64,000 nt of DNA from a virus, in IMG/VR virus record IMGVR_UViG_3300037222_000100, positions 103,870 through 167,869 of that record; one strand, written 5' to 3'. Shown here one piece after another: positions 2,743 through 58,995 of the stretch; position 1 is the stretch's first letter, and each line of letters opens with the position of its first letter. The translations under genes and the position numbers were made by a program. The notes under the pieces are model-generated. The model saw only the letters and a list, made by a program, of their open reading frames with translations. It was not told where the DNA came from and ran no database searches.

Positions 2743-2955
2743 ATGAGCTTCAACGCCAAGGGAGCCATGGATCGCTTCCATCCTCTGGCCGTGACCTACG
2801 AAGGTGTTTCGGGCTGGTGGGTCTGTGACGGCCATGCCGATACCGAGCACACCCTAGCTGTGCCATGCATCGAGGAGCCCTGCGAGGATCGCGATGAGGC
2901 AGTGGCGCTCTGTGCTATTCTGAACGAAGATCATGAGTCCTCCGTCAATGGGTAA
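2743..2955 (+). CDS. Small protein of unknown function
   Basis: 70 aa with two cysteines (PCIEEPC) and a WWVCDGHAD stretch. The family is not recognised. It is first gene behind the leaderless promoter at 2707-2735, and its 3' end overlaps the next gene. Confidence 0.7.
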   Translation: MSFNAKGAMDRFHPLAVTYEGVSGWWVCDGHADTEHTLAVPCIEEPCEDRDEAVALCAILNEDHESSVNG

Positions 2956-3505
2956 GACCGCTCTCATCGTCGTTGATGCACAGAACGACTATCAGCCGGA
3001 CGGCATCCTCGGCTTCCCTGGCAGTGACTCCATCATCGGACCCCTGGTCGAGTTCGGCACGCTCGCTGCCGATGTCGTGATAGCATCGCGCAATCAGCGT
3101 CCGTCCAACCACGAGTCGTTCGCTTCTGAGTCTCATGGCGGTCACTGGCCCGCCAATTGCATCAAGGGTACGAAGGGGGCTGCGCTCGTTTCGGACATTG
3201 CAGCCATAGCCGACTACGTTGTGACCAAGGGCTTGCGCAAAGATCAAGGAGGCTACACGGCGTTCGAAGCCGGGACGCTGCGACCACTCAAGAGCCTAGA
3301 GGACATCCTGGCCGACGAGAAGGTCACGCACATCGCCATAGGCGGATATTGGTTGGAGTGGTGCGTCGCGCAGACAGCCTTCGATGCCAACGCCTTGGGC
3401 TACCCGACCGCCGTTGAGTTGACCGCCACACAGTCGCTTGCGACCCGACCCGATCAAGCAGATCAGATACAGCGATTGCAGAAGGCGGGCATCGTTTGTG
3501 TCTGA
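2948..3505 (+). CDS. Isochorismatase-superfamily protein, nicotinamidase-like (degenerate metal site)
   Basis: 185 aa from the ATG at 2948; an ATG at 2933 is also possible. The family hydrolyses nicotinamide to nicotinate in NAD salvage. Visible motifs are the catalytic Asp in VVDAQNDYQPDG, the Lys in VTKGLRKD, the nucleophile Cys in YWLEWCVAQTAFDA, and the HWPANC..GTKGA segment. The usual DWHP metal-binding motif is replaced: the sequence reads SRNQRPSNHESF, so the Asp and His ligands are Asn and Arg. Either the metal geometry differs or the substrate has changed. It overlaps the upstream gene by 8 nt. Confidence 0.85.
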   Translation: MGKTALIVVDAQNDYQPDGILGFPGSDSIIGPLVEFGTLAADVVIASRNQRPSNHESFASESHGGHWPANCIKGTKGAALVSDIAAIADYVVTKGLRKDQGGYTAFEAGTLRPLKSLEDILADEKVTHIAIGGYWLEWCVAQTAFDANALGYPTAVELTATQSLATRPDQADQIQRLQKAGIVCV

Positions 3506-3522
3506 TGCTATAGTGGCGCGTG

Positions 3523-3834
3523 ATGTCTGACAAACCAACTCCCTACGCCATCTCGCTCGTGCTGCATCGCGGCGTGAATCCAGGATGGCGTGTCCATACT
3601 GCACCTGTTAGCGCCCCAGAGGGCGTACCTGTCTCGATCAAAGAGGCCGAGGCGTTTGCTCGCACGGCAGGAGACATCGCGGGCTACGGCGAGGAGACAC
3701 CGACTCCGTTTGAAGTTGTTCGCGATGGCACCACGGAGTATCGTGCAGAGGTCGAGGCGCAGCTATCAGAGGCCGAGACGCGCGCAGCCACCATCCCCGC
3801 CTTGCGTCGTGCGCTAAAGGACTTCGAGTCATGA
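3523..3834 (+). CDS. Small early protein, unknown function
   Basis: 103 aa with an Ala/Glu-rich helical C-terminus; not recognised. A TATAGT -10 box (3509-3514, TGC extended) lies 8 nt before the ATG, indicating a leaderless start. A GTG one codon earlier is less likely. Confidence 0.65.
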   Translation: MSDKPTPYAISLVLHRGVNPGWRVHTAPVSAPEGVPVSIKEAEAFARTAGDIAGYGEETPTPFEVVRDGTTEYRAEVEAQLSEAETRAATIPALRRALKDFES

Positions 3835-4082
3835 TGCATCCCGAAGATTGGGTGCGTGAACGCGCTAACGAACCGCTATCTCGGCACGAGCAATACTCAC
3901 GCGACGTGACTTGCATACCTGAGGGCGTAGACCTTTTCTATCCGACAGGATCGCCTCGCGATCTTGCCATTAGCCAAGCCATCCGACAGGCGGTCGATCA
4001 ATGGATCGCCGATGATATGGACGGTGCGCTAACATGTCTTCAAGCGGCGGAGGAATTCGTCCACACCCACATACCCTTCTGA
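3831..4082 (+). CDS. Small protein, unknown function
   Basis: 83 aa, mixed charged, with a helical C-terminal half (AISQAIRQAVDQWIADDMDGAL) and no known motif. The start overlaps the upstream stop (ATGA), so it is translationally coupled. Confidence 0.6.
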   Translation: MMHPEDWVRERANEPLSRHEQYSRDVTCIPEGVDLFYPTGSPRDLAISQAIRQAVDQWIADDMDGALTCLQAAEEFVHTHIPF

Positions 4083-4093
4083 AAGGAGAATCG

Positions 4094-5290: not shown

Positions 5291-5315
5291 AATCCGTAGC
5301 CTAAGCTGGTATACT
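5287..5315 (+). promoter_or_regulatory. Leaderless sigma70-like promoter
   Basis: TTGAAA (5287-5292), 17-bp spacer, extended -10 TGG-TATACT (5310-5315), then 7 nt to the ATG at 5323. It overlaps the end of the MazG-like gene. Confidence 0.8.
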
Positions 5316-5322
5316 ATGGCGT

Positions 5323-5373
5323 ATGACCAATACCGAAGAGTTCCCTCCCACCGCTGAGCAGCAGGCCGCTTGA
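5323..5373 (+). CDS. Leaderless 16-aa peptide
   Basis: MTNTEEFPPTAEQQAA, placed exactly 7 nt after a near-consensus -10 box. It could be a real micropeptide or a leader ORF for the next gene, whose own promoter starts inside its stop codon. Confidence 0.5.
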   Translation: MTNTEEFPPTAEQQAA

Positions 5374-5398
5374 CAATCGCGAGCAAAGAGAGGATAAT
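5370..5398 (+). promoter_or_regulatory. Leaderless sigma70-like promoter
   Basis: Consensus TTGACA (5370-5375), 17-bp spacer, GATAAT (5393-5398), then 8 nt to the ATG at 5407. One of the best promoter matches in the window. Confidence 0.85.
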
Positions 5399-5406
5399 CT
5401 CAAGCT

Positions 5407-6183
5407 ATGACCGCTGAGAGCAAACCCTTCCTAGGCCGCTGCAAGCAGTGCGACTACGCGGTCTTCACGACCGAGGAGGACATCGGCAAGGTGAACGATC
5501 TGGCTGGAGTGCAAGCAGGGCGCACAGCCATGAGAGTCTCAGGCCGGGGCGGAGTCGTGGCACGCTGCACAAACAACCACCGGGTCTTCTCACTCAGGCG
5601 GATCGAGGGCACCTACAGCGAGGACTTCAAATGCGACTCGCGGTGCATGAACGCCAAGGGGCACAAGTGCAAGTGCTCATGTGGCGGGCTCAATCACGGT
5701 CGCGGGCACGCGGTCCAGCTTCAGTCCCTCGGTACGGCCGTCGCCAACATCAACGAGGGCTACGGCATCACTGGCGTCCGGGTCGGTGGCCAGAGCATCT
5801 CCAACGACGAGCTTCGCGGGCGTCGGGAGGACGAGGAGGACACGGCCGCTGAGCGCCGCCTGATTGCAGCACAGGCCAAGGACATGCGCTACCCCAAACA
5901 GCACATCGGGGAGATCGGTGAGAAAGTCTACTTCACGGGCGAGCTTCGCCAGAAGCGTGAGATCAACGACTCCATCCTGCATGTGTTCTATACCGAGGTC
6001 CACTCGGCTCCTCATAACGAGTTTGTCGGCGAGGCCAAGGTCGAGTGGTGGATGCCCGCCTCCGTGCCGGACCCCGGCTTCGAGATGGGCGAGGTCTACG
6101 ACCTCAAGGCTAAGGTCAAGCGCCACGACCACCATCCCAAATGGGGCAACGCTACTGTTGTCACCTACCTAGAGGAGGTCTGA
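5407..6183 (+). CDS. Zinc-binding protein with Cys-rich N-terminal half
   Basis: 258 aa. N-terminal half: CKQC at about 12, a CTNNH segment, then CDSRCMNAKGHKCKCSCGG near residues 79-97, a pattern I associate with conserved actinophage proteins. The C-terminal half (about 165-258) is beta-rich and looks like an OB-type or small barrel fold (KVYFTGELRQKREIND...). Nucleic-acid binding is a guess. It is driven by its own TTGACA/GATAAT promoter and overlaps the next gene (TGATG). Confidence 0.75.
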   Translation: MTAESKPFLGRCKQCDYAVFTTEEDIGKVNDLAGVQAGRTAMRVSGRGGVVARCTNNHRVFSLRRIEGTYSEDFKCDSRCMNAKGHKCKCSCGGLNHGRGHAVQLQSLGTAVANINEGYGITGVRVGGQSISNDELRGRREDEEDTAAERRLIAAQAKDMRYPKQHIGEIGEKVYFTGELRQKREINDSILHVFYTEVHSAPHNEFVGEAKVEWWMPASVPDPGFEMGEVYDLKAKVKRHDHHPKWGNATVVTYLEEV

Positions 6184-6919: not shown

Positions 6920-6943
6920 ACGGCCTCTGCTACAATGGGGACC

Positions 6944-7237
6944 ATGGATAACCCCTCAACCGACGCCCCCGTCATCTTCATCGAGGACGACGAGCCCACC
7001 GACGAGCAGCTACAAATCGCCTTCCATCGCGCCAAGAAGGAGTTCGGCGACTGCGTAGCAGATTACGAGAGCGAGGCATTCGAGACAGAGTTCGCAGACC
7101 AACTCAATCTCATCCTGAATGAGGAGGCCATAGGCAACCTCGTTGAGAAGGGCCTCATGGAGGTTCGTGTCCGCGATGATGGTCATCTAGGCTATGCCGT
7201 GACCTCGACCGGAGAGGCCGTCCTGGGGGCTCTGTGA
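6944..7237 (+). CDS. Acidic small protein, possible winged-helix fold
   Basis: 97 aa. Start chosen at 6944 because TGC-TACAAT (6931-6936) lies 7 nt upstream (leaderless). It is acidic and helical, ending in a wing-like strand pair (VRVRDDGHLGYAVTSTGEAVL). A DNA-binding role is possible but weakly supported. Confidence 0.65.
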   Translation: MDNPSTDAPVIFIEDDEPTDEQLQIAFHRAKKEFGDCVADYESEAFETEFADQLNLILNEEAIGNLVEKGLMEVRVRDDGHLGYAVTSTGEAVLGAL

Positions 7238-8524: not shown

Positions 8525-8542
8525 TCAGGTCTTGATCCAGAC

Positions 8543-10001: not shown

Positions 10002-10030
10002 TTGAGATACGCTATGGACTTTGGTATACT
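10002..10030 (+). promoter_or_regulatory. Leaderless sigma70-like promoter
   Basis: TTGAGA (10002-10007), 17-bp spacer, TGG-TATACT (10025-10030), then 7 nt to the ATG at 10038. It restarts transcription after the opposing gene. Confidence 0.8.
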
Positions 10031-10037
10031 ATGGGAT

Positions 10038-10811
10038 ATGACCAAGGCACAGATTGACCCCCGCCAGCACGACGAAGCCACCGCCGCCCTGTACTTCGAG
10101 CTTGACGAGGCGCAGCGCCATCTCGCCCGCGCCATCGCCCGCGTGATCAGGTCCGCTGGCGTCAAGGAGCACCGCTTCGGCAAGGACACGAAGCGCGGGT
10201 GGGGCTCCGAAGACGAGTACTACCCCTACGACGAGGCTGTCGAGCGCGTCGAGGACAAGAGCCTCCTGGACGAGGTTGATCACGCCGAGGCCGAGATCGC
10301 TAGCCTCGACAACGCGATCTTCGCCGCCGAAGCCAAGTACACCGGCTGGAGTCGCTTCTTCCTCGTGACGAGCAGTATGGGCCACATCCATTCCTCGATG
10401 CACTGCGACACCTGCTACGACAGCACGACCTACGGCTGGCTCCCTGAGCTTTCCGGTCTGCTTGAAGCTCACGCGGTTATGGCCCACGGTGAAGTTCTCT
10501 GCACGCGCTGTTTCCCGAGCGCCCCGGCTGGCGACACGATCAGCGTCGCCAAGGCCGCGACACTCGCATGGTCACCTGACCGCGACGAGAAAAGAGCTAA
10601 GGCCGAGGCTGCTCGCGAGGCCAAAGCTGCCGCCAAGATCAAGAAAGCTGCGAGCAAACTCAAGTACGACGAAAGCCTCGCACACAAGGTCAACGCCCTC
10701 TTCGACCTGGATGTGCCGGATGTCTACCACTGGACCTGGGACCACAAGGGCTACGACAACGCCTACTTCGTCTACAGCGACATGGGTCGGAGGGCAGCAT
10801 GCGCTTCCTAA
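10038..10811 (+). CDS. Conserved-type actinophage protein with HHC-type zinc site
   Basis: 257 aa; start set by the promoter 7 nt upstream. Helical N-terminus (ELDEAQRHLARAIARVIRSAG), a central segment HIHSSMHCDTCYD ... LCTRCFPSAP that should bind zinc (residues about 115-165), then an Ala/Lys-rich coiled coil and a C-terminal stretch YHWTWDHKGYDNAYF. I recognise the central segment as recurring in actinophages. Its function is not known to me. Confidence 0.75.
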   Translation: MTKAQIDPRQHDEATAALYFELDEAQRHLARAIARVIRSAGVKEHRFGKDTKRGWGSEDEYYPYDEAVERVEDKSLLDEVDHAEAEIASLDNAIFAAEAKYTGWSRFFLVTSSMGHIHSSMHCDTCYDSTTYGWLPELSGLLEAHAVMAHGEVLCTRCFPSAPAGDTISVAKAATLAWSPDRDEKRAKAEAAREAKAAAKIKKAASKLKYDESLAHKVNALFDLDVPDVYHWTWDHKGYDNAYFVYSDMGRRAACAS

Positions 10812-19297: not shown

Positions 19298-19332
19298 CAC
19301 ACATTAGCCACCGTTTCCTGTACAATGTAGGT

Positions 19333-19740
19333 ATGAAGCTAGCCTCCACAGATGCGGCCTACATCGCTGGATTCCTCGATGGTGAGGGATCGATCATGCT
19401 CTATCGCCGAAAGGATCGAGGCAAGGTTGAACTCCGAATCACCGCGACCAATACACATCGCGAGATTCTAGAGTGGATCATGTCCACAACAGGATGTGGT
19501 TCTATCATCGCGCAAGGGCAGCCTAACCCCGATAAGCACTATCCAGCTTGGCATTGGCGCATCAAGCCATCTGATTGCGTAGCCCTTCTTGAGGTCGTTC
19601 GACCCTACCTGCGACTCAAGGCATCGCAAGCTGATCTTGCCATGGAGTTCCAACAACGATCAGATACCGAGGGCAACGGGCTCTGGCAAGAAGACTATCG
19701 TGAGAGGATGGCTGCACTCAATCGCAGCAAGTGGCGGTGA
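19333..19740 (+). CDS. Single-motif LAGLIDADG homing endonuclease
   Basis: 135 aa. AYIAGFLDGEGSIMLYRR carries the LAGLIDADG helix. It is followed by a family-typical SxTGCGSI and an HWRIK strand. TACAAT (19321-19326) lies 6 nt before the ATG, so it has its own leaderless promoter. It ends one base before the stop of the opposing virion gene. Confidence 0.9.
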   Translation: MKLASTDAAYIAGFLDGEGSIMLYRRKDRGKVELRITATNTHREILEWIMSTTGCGSIIAQGQPNPDKHYPAWHWRIKPSDCVALLEVVRPYLRLKASQADLAMEFQQRSDTEGNGLWQEDYRERMAALNRSKWR

Positions 19741-33910: not shown

Positions 33911-33928
33911 GGACTCTAGTATACCTCC

Positions 33929-36648: not shown

Positions 36649-36672
36649 CACCTACTTAGTATACTCCCGTGC

Positions 36673-36759
36673 GTGAGAAGGAGGCTAGCTGGGGGATGGT
36701 TCGGGAGGGGATGCACATCAGGGCAGGCAGTGCAAGAGCAGCAGGCAGGCTGCGCGTGA
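36673..36759 (+). CDS. Possible leaderless 28-aa peptide (GTG)
   Basis: TATACT (36660-36665) is 7 nt before the GTG. Encodes MRRRLAGGWFGRGCTSGQAV..., Gly/Arg-rich. Only the promoter position supports it. Confidence 0.3.
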   Translation: MRRRLAGGWFGRGCTSGQAVQEQQAGCA

Positions 36760-36865: not shown

Positions 36866-37045
36866 TCAACAGTGTGCTGTGTTCGTGCCTGGCGTGTGGC
36901 TGGCTGTGCTATCGCTGTCATCATACGTGCTACCGATCCTGTATGGTGCATCACGCATGACCTGCTCAGAGCATGCCTTCAGCCAATGACTACATACTTG
37001 GCCGAGGTACGAGCACTGCATTCCACACTCAGGACATGACCACAT
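36866..37045 (-). CDS. 59-aa zinc-finger protein
   Basis: MWSCPECGMQCSYLGQVCSHW: CPEC plus C...C..H ligands, then a hydrophilic Ser/Thr-rich tail. TATGAT lies 7 nt upstream of the ATG (leaderless). Confidence 0.65.
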   Translation of the reverse strand: MWSCPECGMQCSYLGQVCSHWLKACSEQVMRDAPYRIGSTYDDSDSTASHTPGTNTAHC

Positions 37046-37101
37046 GCCGTGCATCATAACAGTTGGGGGCGGATTGCCGCTACTCGTGCTACACTAGAGC
37101 C

Positions 37102-37299
37102 ATGTCAATGTCACGACGTACTCAAACCACTGGCGTTCTCTCTGCCCTGAGACGCTTCCTGCTCATCTGTAGTCTCGCCGCCTTCGTCATCGCTGTGCTG
37201 ATCTCTGTGGGCGTGATCACGCCGACGCTCCGCGAGCTTGCGATCTCATTCAGTCTCTTTGTTGCTGGCGTTGCCTGCCTGCTCGCCTGCGACGAGTGA
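37102..37299 (+). CDS. Two-helix membrane protein
   Basis: 65 aa. Basic N-terminus (MSMSRRTQTT), helices at 18-36 and 46-62. Leaderless: TGC-TACACT ends 6 nt before the ATG. Function unknown. Confidence 0.7.
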   Translation: MSMSRRTQTTGVLSALRRFLLICSLAAFVIAVLISVGVITPTLRELAISFSLFVAGVACLLACDE

Positions 37300-37404: not shown

Positions 37405-37422
37405 TCTGCTATCATGCCGAGC

Positions 37423-37596
37423 ATGGACATCATTCAAGATCACCCCGACTACAACAAGACCGTGAAGTTCTGGTATGAGGCTGGCCACGACGCAGGTCAG
37501 CAACTAGGCGAAGGACGCGGTTGGCAGCGAGGCGTGCGTGCATTCAAGGATCGTCTGCGCCGTTGGCTTGAGCCGCAGTCGCTCACTGCGTCCTAG
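37423..37596 (+). CDS. 57-aa basic protein
   Basis: MDIIQDHPDYNKTVKFWYEAGHDAGQQLGEGRGWQRG...; helical with a basic C-terminus. Leaderless: TGC-TATCAT ends 7 nt before the ATG. Overlaps the stop of the opposing HNH gene. Confidence 0.7.
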   Translation: MDIIQDHPDYNKTVKFWYEAGHDAGQQLGEGRGWQRGVRAFKDRLRRWLEPQSLTAS

Positions 37597-38042
37597 CGGC
37601 TTGCCGCTCGTCTCGCGCTCTCTCGTGCCGTCTTGGCCGCGTGGCATGGGCAGCATCGAGCCCTGAGGTTCTCGACCGTGTGCTCGCCGCCATCCCATAG
37701 CGGTATCTCGTGATCAGCCTCCCAGGCGCGTTCTTCATAGCGTCCCTCGTCATTGAGACGCACGCCCACGAAGAAGCCGCAGTCAGCGCAGCGTAGCTCC
37801 TTGCCTTCCCTCTGCGCTATCACCAACAGAGCTTGACGCGGATTCCAGGTCATCGAGTCGCGGAAGGCTTGGGCGCAGTCGCGGCCCTCGCGATCTGGGT
37901 AGCAGTAGCGCCTGATGCTGGCCCTGCTTCCCTTGAGCTTGTGGCCGCACCATCTGCATGTGCCCTTTGGGGCATCTGGCACTGCGGGATGAGCCAGGAA
38001 GAGAACGCCGCCGCGCTTAGCTATGCTCGACGTACTCGCCAT
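37593..38042 (-). CDS. HNH endonuclease
   Basis: 149 aa (GTG at 38051 possible). Zinc pair CRWCGHK near 30 and core CADCGFF...WEADHEIPLWDGGEHTVENLRARCCPCHAAKT: the canonical HNH (EADHxxPL, ENL, CxxCH). May be homing or packaging-related. It overlaps the upstream small gene by 26 nt. Confidence 0.9.
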   Translation of the reverse strand: MASTSSIAKRGGVLFLAHPAVPDAPKGTCRWCGHKLKGSRASIRRYCYPDREGRDCAQAFRDSMTWNPRQALLVIAQREGKELRCADCGFFVGVRLNDEGRYEERAWEADHEIPLWDGGEHTVENLRARCCPCHAAKTARESARRAASR

Positions 38043-38220
38043 CCTCGTCACGCAGGAGCGTAGTTAGCTCGTGATGCACCCACGGGCGCTCTTGCTTGAA
38101 GCCACGCGGGAAGAGCTTGGCGATAGCCATGCGGTCCTCGCTCGTCAACTCGGCGTCGAGATGCAGCATCGCCTGACCATCGTCCTCTAGCAGTAGCTCA
38201 CACATGATCGAACGCCTCAT
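38017..38220 (-). CDS. 67-aa acidic protein
   Basis: MRRSIMCELLLEDDGQAML...; unknown. Leaderless start: TAGTAT ends 7 nt before the ATG, and this -10 overlaps the -10 of the divergent gene. Confidence 0.65.
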   Translation of the reverse strand: MRRSIMCELLLEDDGQAMLHLDAELTSEDRMAIAKLFPRGFKQERPWVHHELTTLLRDEDGEYVEHS

Positions 38221-38226
38221 GGTTGA

Positions 38227-38233
38227 TATACTA
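38227..38233. promoter_or_regulatory. Shared bidirectional -10 element
   Basis: The heptamer TATACTA reads TATACT on + (7 nt before GTG 38240) and TAGTAT on - (7 nt before ATG 38220). One -10 can serve two divergent leaderless genes. Confidence 0.7.
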
Positions 38234-38239
38234 GCAGCC

Positions 38240-38431
38240 GTGAGGAAGTTCCCGCATCCCATGTTCCGACGCGATGCCCTCGCTGCGTGGCTACACCATC
38301 ACCCCAAGACCCTAATGGCTGCCTCCGAGGACGTGATCAGAGATGAGTCCGATCTCTATCCTCGTGACGTGTTCGGCTCCCATCAGGTCCACAACGACAT
38401 GCGTGTGCTTGAGGGAGAAGGCCGCATATGA
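38240..38431 (+). CDS. 63-aa protein, leaderless GTG start
   Basis: MRKFPHPMFRRDALAAWLHH...; helical, His-rich (LHHHP, SHQVHND). Possibly DNA-binding. Start set by the -10 spacing. Couples to the next gene by ATGA. Confidence 0.6.
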   Translation: MRKFPHPMFRRDALAAWLHHHPKTLMAASEDVIRDESDLYPRDVFGSHQVHNDMRVLEGEGRI

Positions 38432-41952: not shown

Positions 41953-42125
41953 GAGTCCTTCCTCACAAAACCTACCAGCTTACAGCGCACAGGCAACGTC
42001 TCGTAGCCTATCTCACCCATGCGCGTCCACGCGGCGTCGAAGCTCCTGATGCGCTCGGTGCCAAGAGCCGACGTAATCTCGATCTCAGCCACCATCGTCT
42101 CCTTCTTGTCATCCTTCTTAGCCAT
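41949..42125 (-). CDS. 58-aa protein
   Basis: MAKKDDKKETMVAEIEITSALG...; beta-type, basic ends. Unknown. GTGA coupling downstream, 8-nt overlap upstream. Confidence 0.65.
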   Translation of the reverse strand: MAKKDDKKETMVAEIEITSALGTERIRSFDAAWTRMGEIGYETLPVRCKLVGFVRKDS

Positions 42126-42306
42126 CCTGTGCTAGTCGCCTGTACGCGTCGCACTGCACGCATTCGCCGGGTTCGTGATCCTCGAAGGCGAGTCCAGCCA
42201 TCCCCTCGACGCTATCGTTGAAGGCGGAGCGTAGCTCAAGCATGCGTATCTGCACCGCATCCTCGTACGCCTCGGCAGCAAGAGAGTCGTAACTGTCACC
42301 CGTCAT
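42118..42306 (-). CDS. 62-aa acidic protein
   Basis: MTGDSYDSLAAEAYEDAVQ..., ending ECVQCDAYRRLAQDG. Leaderless: TGC-TAAAAT ends 7 nt before the ATG. Confidence 0.65.
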   Translation of the reverse strand: MTGDSYDSLAAEAYEDAVQIRMLELRSAFNDSVEGMAGLAFEDHEPGECVQCDAYRRLAQDG

Positions 42307-42336
42307 GTTACGCATTTTAGCAGGGGGCAACGAAAA

Positions 42337-43284: not shown

Positions 43285-43355
43285 GTTATAGCCCCTTTAC
43301 TGTGGATCGCAGATCAAACATCACAATCGTGTAGTTTAGCAGCTATACTCGAAGA

Positions 43356-43394
43356 ATGCAAGCCATCTGCCTGCAAGATCGGAAGGATTTCTAA
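43356..43394 (+). CDS. Leaderless 12-aa leader peptide
   Basis: MQAICLQDRKDF, 6 nt after TATACT (43344-43349). Its TAA overlaps the next ATG (TAATG), and GGAAGG inside it can serve as the next gene's RBS. Confidence 0.5.
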   Translation: MQAICLQDRKDF

Positions 43395-43525: not shown

Positions 43526-43705
43526 GTCGTCAAAAGGCTCTTCGGCCTCGAAGAGGTTGTCCAAGCCTGCGATGAGAAGGTCGCCGATTTGCTCGCTCTC
43601 CTCTACACCGAATAGCTCCTCGAACTCTTCGAAGCTCTCACTGTCTGCATTCAGTCTGTCAATGAGGTCCATGTACATTACCTTCGCGCTTGAAGGGATT
43701 TGCAT
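43481..43705 (-). CDS. 74-aa very acidic protein
   Basis: Glu/Asp-rich (DSESFEEFEELFGVEESEQ...). Could mimic DNA or buffer basic partners, but that is speculative. Unknown family. Confidence 0.6.
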   Translation of the reverse strand: MQIPSSAKVMYMDLIDRLNADSESFEEFEELFGVEESEQIGDLLIAGLDNLFEAEEPFDDSEELAMLFWVDVLV

Positions 43706-43719
43706 GCTACACTCCCCGG

Positions 43720-43803
43720 ATGTTCGATAATGCCTGGATCATCCCGGCTTCCGTCATCCTGTGCGCCCTATTGTTCGCGCTGGCCCTGGCTGAAGTTATC
43801 TAG
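43720..43803 (+). CDS. 27-aa membrane peptide
   Basis: MFDNAWIIPASVILCALLFA.... Leaderless: TGC-TACACT ends 6 nt before the ATG. Its TAG and the opposing gene's stop share the palindrome CTAG. Confidence 0.65.
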   Translation: MFDNAWIIPASVILCALLFALALAEVI

Positions 43804-44042
43804 TCGCGAGGTCGTCGGTCGATGCGCGCAACCCACTCGTAGCCGCGCTCGGGATCATCGTGTATCGGGAACGTATGAGCGGCGTAGCCGCCAGGGTATG
43901 TAATCGGGTTCCATATCCATGGATGCGAGATATGCGTGATGTCTGCCCAGTCGCAATCATGCCACCCCATGAGCGTCATGCCGACGACTCCGGTCCAGTA
44001 TCGCGCTAGGCACCAAGGGCATTGCGTTTCGAAGAAGCTCAT
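43800..44042 (-). CDS. 80-aa aromatic protein
   Basis: MSFFETQCPWCLARYWTGVVG..., CPWC followed by many Trp/His (GWHDCDWADITHISHPWIW). Unknown. ATGA overlap upstream. Confidence 0.65.
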   Translation of the reverse strand: MSFFETQCPWCLARYWTGVVGMTLMGWHDCDWADITHISHPWIWNPITYPGGYAAHTFPIHDDPERGYEWVARIDRRPRD

Positions 44043-44875
44043 CCTCTGCCTAGGTACGGAGATACGAATCCAGATTGTACACAGTAGACATTGAAGCCGT
44101 GCTCGCACGATGGCGTTGAAGAAGAGGGCAAGCGAATGCCTCGAAACCCATCGTACTTGGTCAACTCCTCCGCCTCGAAGTAGATCAGATGTCCGTCGCT
44201 CGTGATGGACTCACCGGGCGTGAGCTTACGTATACGACGATTGGTGCTGCCCTCGCCATCAGGACGCAGCGTGCGATACGTGAGCCATGCTTCTTGCTTG
44301 AGCGCCGTAAGGCTGATCTCCACACCCATGCTGCGATGGATGGGCTTACCATTGACCTCTATGCGGCGCTCGTAAGGCTTAGCGATGGCCATGACGATGA
44401 CCGCCAACCCGTTACGGACATCATCTTCGATGCACTTGCGCACGACAGCCGTGTACGCGCTCCCTAGTCCAAGAACCTCAGCCCGCATGTAGTCCACAGG
44501 CAAGCCTGCGGCTTCAAGCGCCTGCCTGTGCGGATTGAAGTTGTCGAGAGGAACACCGTTCCACACGCCGAAGGTCGCGATGATCTCAAGCTCGTAATCG
44601 AGATTGCGTAGCGCGCACTCAAAGGGGCTAGCAGAAAAGGTCGCGTCCCAATGCTCCCAACAGAAGTTTTCGCTGTCGATCTCGTAACACGCAATCTCGA
44701 CAGGGCTCGTTAGCTCATCGTGATCGAGCGCATGATCCACATCGATCTCATCAAGGCGCTCTAGCTCTGTCTTCTCGCCAAAGCAGGACGTTAGCTCCTC
44801 GTCTGAGGGAATCCACGGCTGAGGCACGGTGGTGTCGAGACTAAGCTCGAAGAATTGGATATCAGGAATGCTCAT
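44039..44875 (-). CDS. 278-aa unknown protein
   Basis: MSIPDIQFFELSLDTTVPQP...; acidic, alpha/beta, with a C-terminal CEHGFNVYC. No family recognised. Leaderless start: TGC-TACAAT ends 7 nt before the ATG. Antisense frames are shadows. Confidence 0.65.
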   Translation of the reverse strand: MSIPDIQFFELSLDTTVPQPWIPSDEELTSCFGEKTELERLDEIDVDHALDHDELTSPVEIACYEIDSENFCWEHWDATFSASPFECALRNLDYELEIIATFGVWNGVPLDNFNPHRQALEAAGLPVDYMRAEVLGLGSAYTAVVRKCIEDDVRNGLAVIVMAIAKPYERRIEVNGKPIHRSMGVEISLTALKQEAWLTYRTLRPDGEGSTNRRIRKLTPGESITSDGHLIYFEAEELTKYDGFRGIRLPSSSTPSCEHGFNVYCVQSGFVSPYLGRG

Positions 44876-44935
44876 TCGTTGCATTGTAGCAGGCGTAGAT
44901 TTACTGCTCGGCCCATATTCACCGCTGCTGTGAAT

Positions 44936-45086: not shown

Positions 45087-45182
45087 CTACGACAACCGCC
45101 CTCCCGGTGTGGGCTTCACAGCCGTATGCACGGTCCATCCTTTGTCGTCTGCGACAAGACGGAATCTCATGGCCTCATGCAT
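45087..45182 (-). CDS. 31-aa leaderless protein
   Basis: MHEAMRFRLVADDKGWTVHT..., 7 nt after TGC-TATACT. Confidence 0.55.
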   Translation of the reverse strand: MHEAMRFRLVADDKGWTVHTAVKPTPGGRLS

Positions 45183-45201
45183 GTGCGACAGTATAGCAGC
45201 G

Positions 45202-47544
45202 CTACATGTCTGCCCGTACGATTCCCGTCTGGGCTATGTCGGGCTTGCGGTTCCTATGCCACTGATGTTCTTCGCGATCAATGGTGGGATCGTCTTGATG
45301 CACGTCATACCCGCAGTTCTTGCAGGTGTGCTCGTTGTTGTCATCCTTGCCACACGCAGGACAAGTCCATGTGGCTGCTATGATGTGCCAATGAGACATC
45401 TCAACCCTAACGCTCTGGCCTTCATCGGGCTTGGCGCTGTGATCGGTGCTCTTGCTGGTAGCGTGCTCATTGGGCTCGCCATCCCGCTCGGCATCGTGGT
45501 CTTTGCCAGCATCGTGAACTGAGCCCTCCGAAGTCATGTAGTTCCGGGGCTGATCCTGGGGATATCCCACTGGATTAGACTCAGGGATGCTCCACGAATG
45601 ATCGTGGCCCTGCTCGGTCGCATGTAGGCCATGCACGGGACAGTCGAGCTTATGGCCTTTGTCGCAGGTGCAACCTAGAGGGTCCTCGGGATGTGGCGTG
45701 CGCTGTGCTGGCTCATCGTGAGGAATGAGCGCTGGCATCTGATCAGGCATCTCACGCGTATCTGCCTGATCGGCTGATGTCTTGATCTCGTGGACGCCGC
45801 ACACTTCGTCCTCGCCAACCTTCTCGCGTGCTTTCTGCTCATGCTTGTCGCACACGGGGATAAAGGCCATGCCCTCGGCCCAAAGCAGCGATTTGGTCGC
45901 AGGCTCTTTGCAGTACTTGCACTTGTGCGGACGTTCGGTCTTGCGAACCTTGTCCTTTGCTTGCGCCCGCATCCATGTGCGGGGAGCATCGGCATTGTCG
46001 TAGCCCACGGGGCTCGCAGGATTAGGGAAGTCCCATACATGCTCATACGCCGTCTCATCGGCGTTCATTCCATGGACGGGGCAATCAAGCTTGTGCCCAT
46101 GCTCGCAAGTACAGTCGCGGTCGGTCGGCTCGAACGCGGGCTGATCCCGCAGCGGGCCGTGCTCTTGGTTCCACGAATCAGCGAACTTCACTAGCTCACG
46201 CATGTAGGGGGCTGCTATGATGTGTGCATGCTTGGAGATATTCTGTGGGGCGGGGCTTGTCTCGTCGGACTCATTGCCATGGCGAAAGTCTGGATGCGCT
46301 AGATGTGGTTCTTGCTTGGACTCGCGCTCGGTGCTCTTTGGAGGGACCTCTGGTGGCTCTCTGACGACTCCGGGGACGAGGACGAAGACGACTGAAGCCT
46401 CCTTCTCCTCGCGTGGCGTGCTAACAGTGCTCTCTGCCGTCTTTACAGCGGGAGCCCGCAATGCGGACACGTCGTTTTGAACGAATGCGTCCCGCGTGCA
46501 ATGGCTTCCGCTACGTTCCGTTTTTGAGTCATGAGCCGTAGGTTGCTGATCCGGTTGTCCGAAGGATTGTGATTGAGATGACCAACTACCTTGTTGGACG
46601 GCGGTATCCTTTTGTGCCTCGCCATCCAAACTACCCGATGCAGCTTGACTTTGTAGGACTTGATCCCGAGGCGACGGAACGATAGCTCCGTTTCCATGTA
46701 TCCTTGACCCCCTACGTACCCAATCGCCCTGCTCCAAGGTTTGCCCTTGATCGGACGATGATGACGAAACACTTGGCCTGTCGCGAAATCGACCGTTATC
46801 CACCGCTCCTTGAGCGCCCATAGAATCGTCTCGTTGATTGTCATCATCATCGAGTATATCATCGCGAGGAGACGATACGGATGACATCGAAGTCTCGAAC
46901 GTGAGCTTGGGCGGCTTGAGTCCTTTGGGTAGGCTAGGACCATAGGCGATGGTCATGTGCGGCGCGTACTTGTCTTTCGAGTAAGGACCTGGGTCCACAC
47001 CTACGGCTTCGGCTGCCTCGGCTAGCCTGTTGTGATGATCATGAATCGTGTCCGACTCCACGAGAAGCACAATAGGATGCAGGCCATCCTTTTCTTCGCT
47101 CGGCGGGAACTCCTTGAGGCCCTTGGCCGTGACTGCATGTGATTCGTGCTCGATCCACTTAGCGTCATGATGAGAACCTGCGCCGTCGCCCTGAGCGAAG
47201 AGCATCGTGATGTGATAGTCCTCAAGCGGCTCTAGCTCCGTGCTCTCCGGCCAGTCCTGCTCCTGCACCCAGTTGTAAATCTCGGTCGCAGCCTGCTTAG
47301 GGATGTCGAGCCCGACATGTAGCTCGTCTTTCGCCTTGGCTGTCTTGGGCTCGGGCGTGAGCTTCTTCATCTGCCATTCGCGAATGCGTTGCTGCTGCTC
47401 GTCATGGACCTCGTATTCGAGAGGCGTCCGAATGTACATGCGCTCGGCTGGAGTCATCTCGATATCGCTCTTGTCCCAAGCGGCTGCCTTTTGCAGCGCT
47501 GTGAGCCCTTCTGTGGAGTTTGAGGTCTTGGCTGTGGATTCCAT
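45202..47544 (-). CDS. 780-aa late protein: 2H phosphoesterase plus several zinc knuckles, interrupted by nested genes
   Basis: Residues about 70-210 form a LigT-like 2H phosphoesterase: DYHITMLFA and APHMTIAYGP give the two HxT motifs (RNA 2'-5'/cyclic phosphate chemistry in the family). Then zinc modules: CTCEHGHKLDCPVHG (about 477) and its repeat CTCDKGHKLDCPVHG (about 622), CKYCKEP...CDKHE, and CPACGKDD...CKNCGYD near the end. HIIAA occurs twice (AHIIAAPY, WHIIAATW). Residues about 233-367 are the out-of-frame shadow of an HNH gene, and other stretches are antisense to small + genes, yet the frame stays open throughout. The real product may be shorter. Confidence 0.6.
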   Translation of the reverse strand: MESTAKTSNSTEGLTALQKAAAWDKSDIEMTPAERMYIRTPLEYEVHDEQQQRIREWQMKKLTPEPKTAKAKDELHVGLDIPKQAATEIYNWVQEQDWPESTELEPLEDYHITMLFAQGDGAGSHHDAKWIEHESHAVTAKGLKEFPPSEEKDGLHPIVLLVESDTIHDHHNRLAEAAEAVGVDPGPYSKDKYAPHMTIAYGPSLPKGLKPPKLTFETSMSSVSSPRDDILDDDDNQRDDSMGAQGAVDNGRFRDRPSVSSSSSDQGQTLEQGDWVRRGSRIHGNGAIVPSPRDQVLQSQAASGSLDGEAQKDTAVQQGSWSSQSQSFGQPDQQPTAHDSKTERSGSHCTRDAFVQNDVSALRAPAVKTAESTVSTPREEKEASVVFVLVPGVVREPPEVPPKSTERESKQEPHLAHPDFRHGNESDETSPAPQNISKHAHIIAAPYMRELVKFADSWNQEHGPLRDQPAFEPTDRDCTCEHGHKLDCPVHGMNADETAYEHVWDFPNPASPVGYDNADAPRTWMRAQAKDKVRKTERPHKCKYCKEPATKSLLWAEGMAFIPVCDKHEQKAREKVGEDEVCGVHEIKTSADQADTREMPDQMPALIPHDEPAQRTPHPEDPLGCTCDKGHKLDCPVHGLHATEQGHDHSWSIPESNPVGYPQDQPRNYMTSEGSVHDAGKDHDAERDGEPNEHATSKSTDHSAKPDEGQSVRVEMSHWHIIAATWTCPACGKDDNNEHTCKNCGYDVHQDDPTIDREEHQWHRNRKPDIAQTGIVRADM
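45391..45522 (+). CDS. 43-aa membrane protein antisense to the 780-aa gene
   Basis: MRHLNPNALAFIGLGAVIGA..., two short Gly/Ala-rich hydrophobic helices. TGC-TATGAT ends 6 nt before the ATG. The protein-like sequence argues it is real, though it lies opposite a late gene. Confidence 0.55.
   Translation: MRHLNPNALAFIGLGAVIGALAGSVLIGLAIPLGIVVFASIVN
46228..46302 (+). CDS. 24-aa membrane peptide antisense to the 780-aa gene
   Basis: MLGDILWGGACLVGLIAMAK..., 6 nt after TGC-TATGAT (46216-46221). Second occurrence of this promoter arrangement opposite the HIIAA codons. Confidence 0.45.
   Translation: MLGDILWGGACLVGLIAMAKVWMR
46303..46395 (+). CDS. 30-aa membrane peptide with acidic tail
   Basis: MWFLLGLALGALWRDLWWLS then an Asp/Glu tail; starts directly after the preceding stop. 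The helix-plus-charged-tail layout looks like a genuine small phage protein. Confidence 0.5.
   Translation: MWFLLGLALGALWRDLWWLSDDSGDEDEDD
46443..46844 (-). CDS. HNH homing endonuclease nested out of frame in the 780-aa ORF
   Basis: 133 aa: MTINETILWALKERWITVDF..., core LHRVVWMARHKRIPP...VGHLNHNPSDNRISNLRLMT, C-terminal CPHC. TGA-TATACT lies 8 nt before the ATG, so it carries its own leaderless promoter. The surrounding 780-aa frame reads through it as Ser/Gln/Asp-rich sequence. Confidence 0.85.
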   Translation of the reverse strand: MTINETILWALKERWITVDFATGQVFRHHRPIKGKPWSRAIGYVGGQGYMETELSFRRLGIKSYKVKLHRVVWMARHKRIPPSNKVVGHLNHNPSDNRISNLRLMTQKRNVAEAIARGTHSFKTTCPHCGLPL

Positions 47545-53175: not shown

Positions 53176-53810
53176 GGCCAACGTCTCATGATCTCACGCT
53201 TGATGTCATTCCAAGCGTGGTTGGCATAGGTCAGCACAGCCGATTCCAGGAAGCTGATGATCTGAAGACGGTCTTGGGCTAGCTGCGTCTGTCGAGCGCC
53301 CTCGGCTGCCTCCTCAGACGCCCTAGTCTCAGCAACGAATAGGCTCGCTTCCACGGACCCGCGAAGCGTCGCCTCCTCGAAGGCCAACTCCTTCCAGTTG
53401 TCACGTTCAGCGCACGCTTCGCGGAGATCATCCCTATGTTCGTGGACGATCCCAATCGCGATGGAGTAAAGCTGCTCCCACTCCTCGCTCGCGAGTTCTG
53501 CCCTGTCGCGTTCGGCCATCAACTCATCTGCCGTCTCGCGCATCTTGCGCAGACGGTATGCCAAGTCAGGAGCCATGTCGGCCGTGGCAAGGATGTCGAG
53601 CTTTACGCCGTTATTGAGATATGCATCAATCTCCTGCCGAGCCTGCACGTCGGGCTCCACGAAGGAAATGTGAGTCGTGGGCGCGGGACTGACCCTCCGG
53701 TAACAGATACCGCAGTCCGGATCATCACACGTCCCGTTCGTCAGGGCATCTATAGCCGCCTCAACGCTTGCATCGTACTCCCGACGAGCTTGTGAATCAG
53801 CAGCGGCCAT
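53172..53810 (-). CDS. Coiled-coil protein with a CxxxxC pair
   Basis: 212 aa. CDDPDCGICYR at about 27-37, then a long charged helix (about 85-190). Unknown. TGATG overlap with its upstream partner. Confidence 0.65.
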   Translation of the reverse strand: MAAADSQARREYDASVEAAIDALTNGTCDDPDCGICYRRVSPAPTTHISFVEPDVQARQEIDAYLNNGVKLDILATADMAPDLAYRLRKMRETADELMAERDRAELASEEWEQLYSIAIGIVHEHRDDLREACAERDNWKELAFEEATLRGSVEASLFVAETRASEEAAEGARQTQLAQDRLQIISFLESAVLTYANHAWNDIKREIMRRWP

Positions 53811-54055
53811 CAGTCATCGCTCACGATGTCATCGATTTTCACGGTCACCGCATCATCGGGCAAATCCGCCCACCCGTCCAAGTTGGATAGCGAGAGCCCA
53901 AGACCGATCAGATTGATGGCCAAATGCTCAAGGAGTGCCTTCTCGCTGGCGAAAGGAACGCCATACATGGCCTCGCCTCGATCTAGGTCCAGAACGGCGT
54001 CATCCTGCACATCGATGGAGGCATAAGTCGTTAGCGTGATCGGTATCTTAGTCAT
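53810..54055 (-). CDS. 81-aa acidic protein
   Basis: MTKIPITLTTYASIDVQDDA...; beta N-terminus, helical middle, Asp-rich end. Leaderless: TGC-TACACT ends 8 nt before the ATG. Confidence 0.65.
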   Translation of the reverse strand: MTKIPITLTTYASIDVQDDAVLDLDRGEAMYGVPFASEKALLEHLAINLIGLGLSLSNLDGWADLPDDAVTVKIDDIVSDD

Positions 54056-54098
54056 GACGTAGGAGTGTAGCAGAAGTGGAGATGGATGGGGCGAGGAC

Positions 54099-54536: not shown

Positions 54537-54760
54537 CGCGACACCCCACAAGCGATCAGGAAGCGGTCGCGATCAAAGCGAGGATTCTCCCGTTCGAATT
54601 CGTCTGCAAGAGCTTCAGCGCTGACCTCGATCCCATGACTATAGTTCTCAAGCAGCCGTTGAGACATGCGACTGAGACTCTCGTTTGATGCGTCAGCCAA
54701 GAAACCATTGCGCTGTCGATTGAGGACAGCCGCCACCATTTGATAGTCCTTTTTAGTCAT
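54533..54760 (-). CDS. Conserved small phage protein
   Basis: 75 aa from the ATG with GGAGG upstream: MTKKDYQMVAAVLN...LADEFERENPRFDRDRFLIAC. The NPRFDRxRFLxACG ending recurs in many phages; function unknown. Confidence 0.75.
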   Translation of the reverse strand: MTKKDYQMVAAVLNRQRNGFLADASNESLSRMSQRLLENYSHGIEVSAEALADEFERENPRFDRDRFLIACGVSR

Positions 54761-54890
54761 TGACTGTGGCCTCCTGAATGACTCGCTTTGCTTTGCGAAT
54801 CTCTGCATCAGTAAACTGACATTGATTCTTCATGATGAACTGCGCTTTGCGCAGCCGCTCTGCGTATCGATAGGTGTAGCGAGAAAGCAT
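54753..54890 (-). CDS. 45-aa basic helical protein
   Basis: MLSRYTYRYAERLRKAQFIM...; 6 nt after a TATACT -10 box with TTGCAG 17 bp further up. Basic and possibly DNA-binding. Confidence 0.65.
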   Translation of the reverse strand: MLSRYTYRYAERLRKAQFIMKNQCQFTDAEIRKAKRVIQEATVND

Positions 54891-54896
54891 GAATAT

Positions 54897-54925
54897 AGTA
54901 TATCAGACTAGGCTAACGCCTGCAA
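54897..54925 (-). promoter_or_regulatory. Leaderless sigma70-like promoter
   Basis: TTGCAG, 17-bp spacer, TGA-TATACT on the minus strand, 6 nt before the ATG at 54890. Confidence 0.75.
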
Positions 54926-56694: not shown

Positions 56695-56819
56695 TCTGCT
56701 CGCCGACCCATCTCATAGTCGTACGAGCGAAGCTCACAGACGGCCTCGGCGTGATCCATCCTTTTCCGCAACTCGAAGTACTCGCTTTCGTACTTCTGAA
56801 GTAGTTCTCCCGCGCTCAT
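56691..56819 (-). CDS. 42-aa coiled-coil protein
   Basis: MSAGELLQKYESEYFELRKR...; charged helix. Overlaps both neighbours by 4 nt. Confidence 0.65.
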   Translation of the reverse strand: MSAGELLQKYESEYFELRKRMDHAEAVCELRSYDYEMGRRAE

Positions 56820-57040
56820 GTCGGTAGCTCCCCGTAGTCTTGTTGGAACCGTTCGCGATGACCCAGAAGGTCCTTGAGCCAGTCGGCCGCGTCGTACAGG
56901 CCAAAGCGCGTAGCGAGGACGAGCATGTCTTTCAACTGGTCGTCCAGGCTTTCCTGCGATTGATTGGCCGCTACGCCTTTGCTCACGCGCACAGCATCGT
57001 CCATCAACTGCGCACTGCCAGAACCACTTTCGTATCGCAT
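56816..57040 (-). CDS. 74-aa protein, first of a small-gene operon
   Basis: MRYESGSGSAQLMDDAVRVS..., helical with DWLKDLLGHRERFQQDYG. Leaderless start behind a near-consensus promoter (57049-57077). Confidence 0.65.
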   Translation of the reverse strand: MRYESGSGSAQLMDDAVRVSKGVAANQSQESLDDQLKDMLVLATRFGLYDAADWLKDLLGHRERFQQDYGELPT

Positions 57041-57048
57041 AGCCCTAG

Positions 57049-57077
57049 ATAATATCAGAGCGATGAACCAAAGTCAA
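57049..57077 (-). promoter_or_regulatory. Leaderless sigma70-like promoter
   Basis: TTGACT, 17-bp spacer, TGA-TATTAT, 8 nt before the ATG at 57040. Likely drives the leftward small-gene run down to about 55 kb. Confidence 0.8.
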
Positions 57078-57265
57078 GCAATGAGTTCGGTAACGACTTC
57101 GATCAAGATGATTAGCACAACAACAGCGATTGTCTCGTAGATCGTCAAACGCAAGACTTCGCGCCACGTAGGCTGCGGATTCCACGAGGCCCATAGCTCA
57201 CCCGCTTGCTTTAGTCGGCAGACGATCAGGTTCTTGATTTCTTTGATGGCAAACCTTAGGTTCAT
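57074..57265 (-). CDS. 63-aa membrane protein
   Basis: MNLRFAIKEIKNLIVCRLKQ..., C-terminal helix TIAVVVLIILIEVV. Coupled to the SWIM protein by ATGA, so probably late. Confidence 0.7.
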   Translation of the reverse strand: MNLRFAIKEIKNLIVCRLKQAGELWASWNPQPTWREVLRLTIYETIAVVVLIILIEVVTELIA

Positions 57266-58488
57266 CGTCGTTGCACGGCGGGTCCGGGAGGCTGAATGCC
57301 TCCGCGTGGGATCAAGTCCTTTGGCCAGAACCATCCTGTGATGCCGTGAGGTTCCATTCTACCAGCTTGAGCCTGCGGTCCCGCGAAGTAGACGTTCACG
57401 AGCCCTAGAGGATCAGAACCAAGGACCTCGCCAATGCTGTTGGCCGGAATAGTGGCCGTCTGGCCTGCATTCAAGCCAACGGTCTGCCCAACGTCCTCCT
57501 GTTTCAACTGGACCATCTGTCCGTTCGTGAACTGCTGCGCCGCGACGTGGGAGAACGTGCCGCCTGGAGACTGGATCGGGTTGAGTGGCGTCTGTGGCTT
57601 GAGGCCAGGGACGGACACAGGATTGATCGCGGGCTGAAGGGAGGGATCATGCGGGTACTGCGGAATGAGTTCAGGTGGCTCGGGCGCTTGCCCCGGAGGA
57701 GGCGTGCCTGGTCCAGCCGGTATGGGGGCTATCTGATTCTGCATCCCAGGCTGTTGCGGGCCAGGAGCGGTCGCTGGAGGCACCATACCCGTGCCGCCAC
57801 CAGGGACCTGCGCCATGCCTTCTGGCGCTGGAACGGCTCCAGGACCGCCTTCCTGCGGCGCTTGCGGGCCTTCAGCGCCGGGTCCCGTTTCTTCATCGAG
57901 AGGCATTGTCTGCGCAAGCCAGTAGGTGGCCAGCACATGAGAGCACACCCGACCCTCGTACTTCTTCCACTGACGAGTGCGTTGCCAGGCGAACTGATCC
58001 CACTTACAGCCGCACGACCAGAGCGAGATAGCCTGCGAGCTTGGGTCCTGCCGTGTGATTTCTGTCGTGTAGTCGCCGTGATCGCCTTCGACGTGGCCAG
58101 CGATGATCTGAGCGCTGTTGCGCAGGATGTGGACTTTGCCTGACTGGATAAGACGCTTGGCCTTTGCTTCGATATCGTTCCAGTCCGCTTCCTTGATCAA
58201 CTGCGTGTCGGCGTGATCCCAATCGAGACGATACTGCGCCCGCTCGATGCCGTGGCCAACTAGCTGCGCCTCCACGATGCGGCAAGCATACTCGCGGTCG
58301 AGGATCGAACCCCCACTGGCGAAGACATGAGCGACCCCCGGCGTGACCGAAAACCATGTTGCGTCCGTGTGTCCGATACGCAAAGAGTGCGCCGGTAGCT
58401 CGGGTGGCGCGTCGGCGAGCGCGAGACGGTAGTAATCCTCCTCCCAGGACCCTATATCTTGCGTTGAGATAACCTTAGACCACGACAT
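57262..58488 (-). CDS. 408-aa late protein with SWIM zinc finger and SH3-like end
   Basis: N-terminal alpha/beta part (1-140, FSVTPGVAHVFASGGS...). SWIM finger at about 150-190: WSCGCKWDQFAWQRTRQWKKYEGRVCSHVLATYWL (CxC...CxH), a DNA/protein-binding module. A Pro/Gln/Gly linker (200-300) follows, then TFSHVAAQQ (shared motif) and a barrel-like end (MVQLKQEDVGQTVGL...WFWPKDLI). Starts at the late signature TCATAATGACTGA. Probably virion-associated. Confidence 0.75.
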   Translation of the reverse strand: MSWSKVISTQDIGSWEEDYYRLALADAPPELPAHSLRIGHTDATWFSVTPGVAHVFASGGSILDREYACRIVEAQLVGHGIERAQYRLDWDHADTQLIKEADWNDIEAKAKRLIQSGKVHILRNSAQIIAGHVEGDHGDYTTEITRQDPSSQAISLWSCGCKWDQFAWQRTRQWKKYEGRVCSHVLATYWLAQTMPLDEETGPGAEGPQAPQEGGPGAVPAPEGMAQVPGGGTGMVPPATAPGPQQPGMQNQIAPIPAGPGTPPPGQAPEPPELIPQYPHDPSLQPAINPVSVPGLKPQTPLNPIQSPGGTFSHVAAQQFTNGQMVQLKQEDVGQTVGLNAGQTATIPANSIGEVLGSDPLGLVNVYFAGPQAQAGRMEPHGITGWFWPKDLIPRGGIQPPGPAVQRR

Positions 58489-58514
58489 TCAGTCATTATG
58501 ACGCAGTACGGTCG

Positions 58515-58682
58515 TCAATTCCACCGTGCGTTGACTCTCTGCATGATAGCAGAAACCTGTCGCTCGTCCAGGTCGAGATCGCGCGCAAGAGACTGTTCTA
58601 TCTCCTCAGGCGAAAAGAGGCCAGTGGCAGTCTGCGCGATGCGCAGCGCCGTCGTCATCTTGTCGGGCTCCGTGACGCTCAT
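58515..58682 (-). CDS. 55-aa helical protein
   Basis: MSVTEPDKMTTALRIAQTAT...SLARDLDLDERQVSAIMQ; helix-turn-helix-like. ATGA overlap with the upstream small gene. Confidence 0.65.
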   Translation of the reverse strand: MSVTEPDKMTTALRIAQTATGLFSPEEIEQSLARDLDLDERQVSAIMQRVNARWN

Positions 58683-58831
58683 ACCGAGGGGTCATTCGTC
58701 ATGAGCAGGGGAAGGTCCTCGCGTCCAAGCTCCCGCAGCTTCTCCTCAGCTTCCTCAAGCGAGTCGGCTTCGATGAAGACGCCAAGCTCTGGCGTCTCGT
58801 CTGTCTCGTGGTTATATGGCGTGATGATCAT
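58679..58831 (-). CDS. 50-aa acidic protein
   Basis: MIITPYNHETDETPELGVFI..., strand then a Glu-rich helix. Overlaps both neighbours. Confidence 0.65.
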   Translation of the reverse strand: MIITPYNHETDETPELGVFIEADSLEEAEEKLRELGREDLPLLMTNDPSV

Positions 58832-58995
58832 GACTGCTCCTCATCTAGGGGCTCAGCGATAAGCTCACGGAACCATTGACGGTCCGGCGTATCCACAGGC
58901 TTGCCTGTGTGCTCTTCCTCAAGTACAGCCGCGTTCTCGCGAGCAATGGCGCTCCCTACGGCGCGATCCAACTTGGTTTCAGGGTATCGGGGCAT
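58828..58995 (-). CDS. 55-aa protein, leaderless
   Basis: MPRYPETKLDRAVGSAIARE...; 7 nt after TATACT. First of three small coupled genes. Confidence 0.65.
   Translation of the reverse strand: MPRYPETKLDRAVGSAIARENAAVLEEEHTGKPVDTPDRQWFRELIAEPLDEEQS

Follow-up and report, generated by a model that had tools for sequence, protein, structure and literature searches.

Extended −10 boxes abutting start codons as probable leaderless promoters in a lineage of large, uncultured myoviruses

The IMG/VR virus record IMGVR_UViG_3300037222_000100, 167,869 bases long, belongs to an uncultured lineage of large myoviruses, and the window analyzed here is its 64,000-nucleotide (nt) stretch at bases 103870-167869. 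Many start codons in this window are closely preceded by a −10 element, mostly of the extended form TGnTA(t/c)A(c/a)T and sometimes accompanied by a TTG −35 element, and these boxes are very probably promoters that, when read by the host housekeeping sigma factor, would give rise to leaderless mRNAs. Transcription would begin at the ATG itself or within 1-2 bases of it, and translation of the leaderless mRNA would need no Shine-Dalgarno sequence. We infer that these positions are the true 5′ ends of the transcripts, that host sigma reads the boxes and that the mRNAs are translated. Only around one gene in nine follows the leaderless rule, compared with around two thirds of the strong extended −10 promoters in the phage. 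With this rule, start codons can be placed and very small genes recognized from sequence alone in a poorly known group of large phages whose kin are actinobacterial, and the cultured relative Myrna, grown on Mycobacterium smegmatis, offers a direct test.

Genes for a tail sheath, baseplate, major head protein and portal are present in the record, together with 32 tRNA genes. The nearest annotated phages of the portal are Rhodococcus phage E3, the Gordonia phages Skog and Pupper and the cluster C mycobacteriophages, and the sheath returns a nearly identical list; because these kin are actinobacterial phages, the host is likely actinobacterial as well. A nucleotide query of annotated phages gave zero matches, and WhiB, sought as a host marker, was not found. 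Among the relatives are several fragments and a sister record that is close to full length (G001; 169,966 bases, with a portal 79% identical).

The motif scan that had been named beforehand, with dinucleotide shuffles as the baseline, found TGnTAnnnT-N6-8-ATG 23 times in the window vs 2.1 ± 1.3 in shuffled sequence (60 shuffles, maximum 6). The pattern is also enriched in the remainder of the record (16 vs 3.4), and across the entire record it occurs 39 times vs 6 for the reversed pattern. Similar excesses over shuffles are found in the sister (60 vs 12), in the relative G002 (15 vs 1.9) and in Mycobacterium phage Myrna (13 vs 1.6), where the box-ATG spacing has a sharp peak at 6. Most of the other phages tested contain the pattern no more often than the reversed form (E3, 0 vs 2; Finch, 1 vs 3; Phrappuccino, 2 vs 2; lambda, 3 vs 2; P1, 5 vs 5). 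The bare TAnnnT-N6-8-ATG occurs 77 times in the window, vs 35.2 ± 5.3 in shuffles and about 40 at neighbouring distances, and roughly half of these bare matches are therefore due to chance. Because bare TAnnnT was too weak a criterion, TGnTAnnnT plus a weight matrix trained on relatives only was used in its place.

An initial annotation of the window had listed 28 starts under a leaderless promoter rule. A TAnnnT box indeed ends 6-8 nt 5′ of an ATG or GTG at all 28, and TG stands one base 5′ of the box at 21 of them, in line with the statement that TGn often precedes it. Of the eight TTG −35 elements said to lie at 17-18 bp, seven do so (2743, 5323, 10038, 34107, 54890, 57040 and 58995), but the eighth, at 5407, has a spacer of 19. 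At least two sites had been missed, an HNH gene at 21623(−) and a GTG start at 43324(−). The sites are given below in window coordinates, where d is the number of nt between the end of the box and the start codon, aa stands for amino acids, ORF for open reading frame, and "called" for a call by codon usage.

2727..2955, +: 70-aa gene, ATG 2743; extended −10 TGGTAGACT, d = 7; called; boxed ortholog in sister
3506..3834, +: 103-aa gene, ATG 3523; extended −10, d = 8; called; box near ortholog's start
5307..5373, +: 16-codon ORF, ATG 5323; extended −10 TGGTATACT, d = 7; homology to sister
5395..6183, +: 258-aa gene, ATG 5407; weak TAATCT, d = 6; called; low box score; no box in sister
6928..7237, +: 97-aa gene, ATG 6944; extended −10 TGCTACAAT, d = 7; called; box kept in sister
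10022..10811, +: 257-aa gene, ATG 10038; TTGAGA −35, extended −10 TGGTATACT, d = 7; called; box kept in G002
19321..19740, +: LAGLIDADG endonuclease gene, ATG 19333; TACAAT, d = 6; Pfam 5.8e-5; low box score
21114..21639, −: 170-aa HNH_3 endonuclease ORF, ATG 21623; box at d = 7; absent from the initial list
33473..33923, −: gene at GTG 33910; TATACT, d = 7; called; overlaps a Shine-Dalgarno-like GGAGGT at 12 nt; ambiguous
34095..34256, +: 49-aa ORF, 34107; TATACT, d = 6; box only
36022..36456, −: 139-aa HNH_3 endonuclease gene, ATG 36441; extended −10 TGCTACACT, d = 6; called; Pfam 2.6e-10
36660..36759, +: 28-aa GTG ORF, 36673; TATACT, d = 7; box only
36866..37061, −: 59-aa ORF, ATG 37045; extended −10 TGTTATGAT, d = 7; divergent to 37102; box only
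37087..37299, +: 65-aa ORF, ATG 37102; extended −10 TGCTACACT, d = 6; box only; hydrophobic translation
37407..37596, +: 57-aa gene, ATG 37423; extended −10 TGCTATCAT, d = 7; called
38017..38236, −: 67-aa gene, ATG 38220; extended −10 TGCTAGTAT, d = 7; called; −10 region common with 38240(+)
38224..38431, +: 63-aa gene, GTG 38240; extended −10 TGATATACT, d = 7; called; divergent pair with 38220(−)
42118..42322, −: 62-aa gene, ATG 42306; extended −10 TGCTAAAAT, d = 7; called
43344..43394, +: 12-aa ORF, 43356; TATACT, d = 6; box only; divergent boxed GTG start at 43324(−)
43705..43803, +: 27-aa ORF, 43720; extended −10 TGCTACACT, d = 6; box only
44039..44891, −: 278-aa gene, ATG 44875; extended −10 TGCTACAAT, d = 7; called
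45087..45198, −: 31-aa ORF, 45182; extended −10 TGCTATACT, d = 7; box only; top box score of the list
45376..45522, +: 43-aa hydrophobic protein gene, ATG 45391; extended −10 TGCTATGAT, d = 6; antisense within 45202-47544; homologs
46213..46302, +: 24-aa ORF, 46228; extended −10 TGCTATGAT, d = 6; box only
46443..46861, −: 133-aa HNH_3 endonuclease gene, ATG 46844; extended −10 TGATATACT, d = 8; Pfam 1.4e-14
53810..54072, −: 81-aa gene, ATG 54055; extended −10 TGCTACACT, d = 8; called
54753..54905, −: 45-aa gene, ATG 54890; extended −10 TGATATACT, d = 6; called; TTG at spacer 17
56816..57057, −: 74-aa gene, ATG 57040; TTGACT −35, extended −10 TGATATTAT, d = 8; start kept in four relatives, box in one
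58828..59008, −: 55-aa gene, ATG 58995; TTGACA −35, TATACT, d = 7; called

With so loose a motif as TAnnnT, a search before every ATG might succeed by chance, and about half of the bare matches in the window, as well as practically all of those outside it in the record, are at chance level, while eight listed ORFs have the box as their sole support. As a general explanation this is nevertheless very improbable: the extended box is ten-fold enriched, specific to ATG and to distance, and conserved, and as a class the extended box can no longer be put down to chance. Chance may still account for individual weak sites such as 5407, 19333, 36673 and 43356.

The specificity for ATG emerges without presupposing a start codon. 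Of the 64 possible triplets, none is as enriched as ATG at 6-8 nt after TGnTAnnnT (133 vs 34 in the phage plus relatives), and ATG ranks first separately in the phage, the sister, the other relatives and Myrna. Strong boxes (TG[CA]TA[CT]A[CA]T) in the phage plus relatives are followed by ATG in 52 of 81 cases, with 4.9 expected. Within the phage (where the last variable base could be A, C or G), 21 of the 26 strong boxes are intergenic or at gene edges and 18 abut an ATG or GTG; leaderless mRNAs would therefore be the usual output of its strong extended −10 promoters. Of the eight strong boxes with no adjoining start, four are followed after 42-53 nt by a called start, as is usual for leadered genes, and leadered promoters therefore exist in this phage. 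These four agree with the alternative that the boxes are generally promoters of leadered mRNAs, translated from a downstream codon, with the nearby ATG incidental, but we find that account hard to credit in view of the ATG specificity at 6-8 nt, the few Shine-Dalgarno sequences at boxed starts, the concurrence of the Myrna annotation at eight sites, and the beginning of ortholog similarity at the boxed ATG at 10038, L002:8927, L003:8259 and L006:13611. Protein similarity begins at the first residues also at L004:16867.

Myrna provides an annotation made by others. Eight of its 13 pattern hits are exact annotated start codons (3019, 9351, 52035, 56706, 133429, 134129, 134656 and 89208−), and three more (3851, 4614 and 57051) share the frame of an annotated gene but lie at a different codon. 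The latter three genes, in which the boxed in-frame ATG differs from the annotated start, suggest that current annotation may misplace starts.

Among the 217 called genes, 25 have a box at a candidate start, vs 2.2 at shifted distances. A Shine-Dalgarno sequence of at least 4 nt accompanies 3 of the 25 boxed starts, and one is present at any candidate start in 7 of the 25 boxed vs 119 of the 192 unboxed genes. Orthologs in relatives are also boxed for 12 of 18 boxed genes vs 9 of 108 unboxed genes (odds ratio 22, P = 1.8e-7). Leaderless promoters as initially proposed are thus supported by distance and triplet specificity, scarce Shine-Dalgarno sequences, ortholog conservation and the Myrna starts, but not as the default for small phage genes: boxes precede 6 of 44 genes under 70 aa, 11 of 83 of 70-149 aa, 6 of 58 of 150-299 aa and 2 of 32 above that size (8 of 90 at ≥150 aa), and 14 of 94 genes that seem to be first in their transcription unit. 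It is the converse that holds, in that most strong extended −10 boxes lie directly before a start codon.

The unforced positions of the box are T/C, A and C/A, giving a SigA-like TATACT, and a TTG at spacer 16-19 is found in relatives at 18 of 70 sites vs 2 of 70 at a shifted spacer; a consensus −10 with an optional TGn and a TTG −35 at 16-19 bp is the arrangement of SigA-type promoters. Recognition by a phage-encoded sigma factor or polymerase instead of host sigma would be compatible with a temporal class of genes, as the module at 36-48 kb holds 17 of the 27 strongest boxed starts. That possibility is nonetheless a slim one, given that the consensus is an ordinary sigma-70/SigA extended −10 and that no match to sigma-70 region 2 or region 4 was found in the phage, sister or Myrna; the search for a single-subunit polymerase had no positive control, was uninformative and was not used.

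Several points weigh against reading the boxes as host-read leaderless promoters. The transcript 5′ ends are predicted from sequence, the host is assigned through the kin, and the gene calls were made with a simple, approximate codon-usage caller written for this analysis. Some sites are ambiguous, 33910 through its GGAGGT and 5407 and 19333 through their low box scores; the box is absent at some orthologs (5407, 57040), with boxes both gained and lost; and 2 of the 13 Myrna hits precede tRNA genes instead of coding starts. In the remainder of the record the bare TAnnnT-N6-8-ATG is unenriched (59 vs 56). As it is about two-fold enriched in the window and unenriched outside it in the record, the looser rule of the initial annotation lets in many chance matches, and bare TAnnnT is weak evidence.

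Leaderless mRNAs are, as the initial annotation held, established in actinobacteria. TA-led genes of Actinobacteria carry a TANNNT whose first T is about 12 bp 5′ of the start, lack a Shine-Dalgarno sequence and make up >20% of genes (Zheng et al. 2011, PMC3160421). The boxed phage genes resemble them in the TANNNT at about 10-12 bp, the missing Shine-Dalgarno sequence and the significance against dinucleotide shuffles, but differ in belonging to an uncultured large myovirus lineage, in a stronger dependence on TGn and in comprising about 11% of called genes. This share is near the roughly 14% of Mycobacterium genes with experimentally mapped leaderless transcripts (PMC7148126), and the presumed start at the ATG is the same, although predicted here. 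Leaderless promoters have also been predicted in mycobacteriophages, namely PL1, PR2 and PL2 of cluster O (PMC4351075) and P90 of Adephagia (PMC11373665); those, too, are SigA-like, place +1 at the first base of the start codon and include a divergent leaderless pair, but they are single promoters, whereas the present case is lineage-wide, quantified and conserved in myoviruses, Myrna included. The leaderless signal is already known from Actinobacteria and from single promoters predicted in mycobacteriophages, and in the open literature searched the novelty would lie in finding it conserved and quantified across a lineage of large myoviruses. For bidirectional promoters that share a symmetric −10, the preferred distances between starts are reported to be 18, 10 and 23 bp (Warman et al.; PMC12825309). 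The pair 38220(−)/38240(+) has a like geometry around one pseudo-symmetric shared −10, with predicted starts 20 bp apart, and a second divergent pair (L039 18125/18146) has them 21 bp apart; unlike those promoters, both mRNAs at 38220/38240 would be leaderless.

Of the 28 listed sites, 17 have gene support from the codon-usage call and three more from homology (5323, 45391 and 46844), leaving eight with a box only (34107, 36673, 37045, 37102, 43356, 43720, 45182 and 46228). The proposal that the rule lets tiny genes be predicted accordingly stands for 45391(+), 46844(−) and 5323(+), with their independent homology support, but for the eight others has the box as its only ground. At 5323(+), 11 of 16 residues are identical in the N-terminal part of a 129-aa sister protein whose gene is boxed, and the ORF is probably a truncated remnant of that gene. 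Across 5323-5406 (+), the sister's boxed gene appears cut to 16 codons, and a new weak box precedes the next gene, 5407.

The 43-aa gene at 45391(+) lies antisense in a structural gene of 780 aa, 45202-47544(−). Its sister homolog (57.5% over 40 aa, ungapped) is also boxed and also antisense, and the two differ at 15, 9 and 24 first, second and third codon positions, as expected under selection on the 45391 frame and not on the opposite strand. A 221-kb contig that otherwise differs from these phages carries a third homolog (63% over 41 aa), which is not antisense there and has no clear box. Scans of viral contigs with 45202-47544 and 44042-44875 as queries found zero relatives. The strand opposite the 46228 ORF encodes a KHAHIIAAP motif resembling one at 45391. 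Both 45202-47544(−) and 59018-61822(−) have weak matches, below the Pfam cut-off, to the 2H phosphoesterase-like RNA ligase/Acb1 (anti-CBASS) family.

The 46844(−) HNH_3 endonuclease gene (46443-46844) also sits within the 45202-47544 ORF, in a different frame; the large frame crosses it as a low-complexity stretch, which suggests an insertion that left the large frame open. Homing-endonuclease genes are frequent among the boxed genes (19333, with a weak box, 21623, 36441, 46844, L002:15970 and L003:2434). Because six such genes are boxed, one weakly, and the boxed 43-aa gene is antisense within a structural gene in two phages and located at another site in a third, we tentatively entertain, at somewhat less than even confidence, that the promoter is combined with the start codon in a single portable unit some 20-25 bp long. 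New genes, meaning homing endonucleases and tiny membrane proteins, could then settle anywhere, antisense to structural genes or in another frame, and be expressed without an operon or Shine-Dalgarno sequence.

At L003:2068(−) and L003:2434(−) (record 22068 and 22434), a GC-rich hairpin lies directly 5′ of the extended −10, in the place of a −35; it is present in the phage at L003:2434 and in several relatives at the ortholog of 2068, and is possibly a terminator abutting a leaderless promoter. In L003:6360-16440, all 32 tRNA genes are on the same strand with small protein genes interspersed, and the leaderless box of 8259(−) directly follows a tRNA.

The 221-kb contig reached through the third homolog of the 43-aa gene contains 36 copies of GGAAC-N5-TATAAT-N6-ATG, most in one small-gene array, and none of the reversed pattern. 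Because GGAAC promoters are absent from the phage, sister and Myrna, they are set apart from the main finding; the pattern is also absent from three cultured Kyanoviridae tested (C48C1, P-RSM6 and syn9), and no paper on the element was found in the open literature searched. With their GGAAC element at about −22, these arrays seem to represent a leaderless promoter class of their own. Contigs with such arrays are L069 (IMGVR_UViG_3300040801_004034, 190001-210000), L076, L079, L101, L113, L115, L124 and L137. In 11 multi-copy contigs, picked by the pattern itself, the distance from GGAAC to the −10 is 5 nt in 90 cases and that from the −10 to the ATG is 6 nt in 62, and the pattern recurs in other, AT-rich contigs, one of which has a T4-type DNA polymerase.

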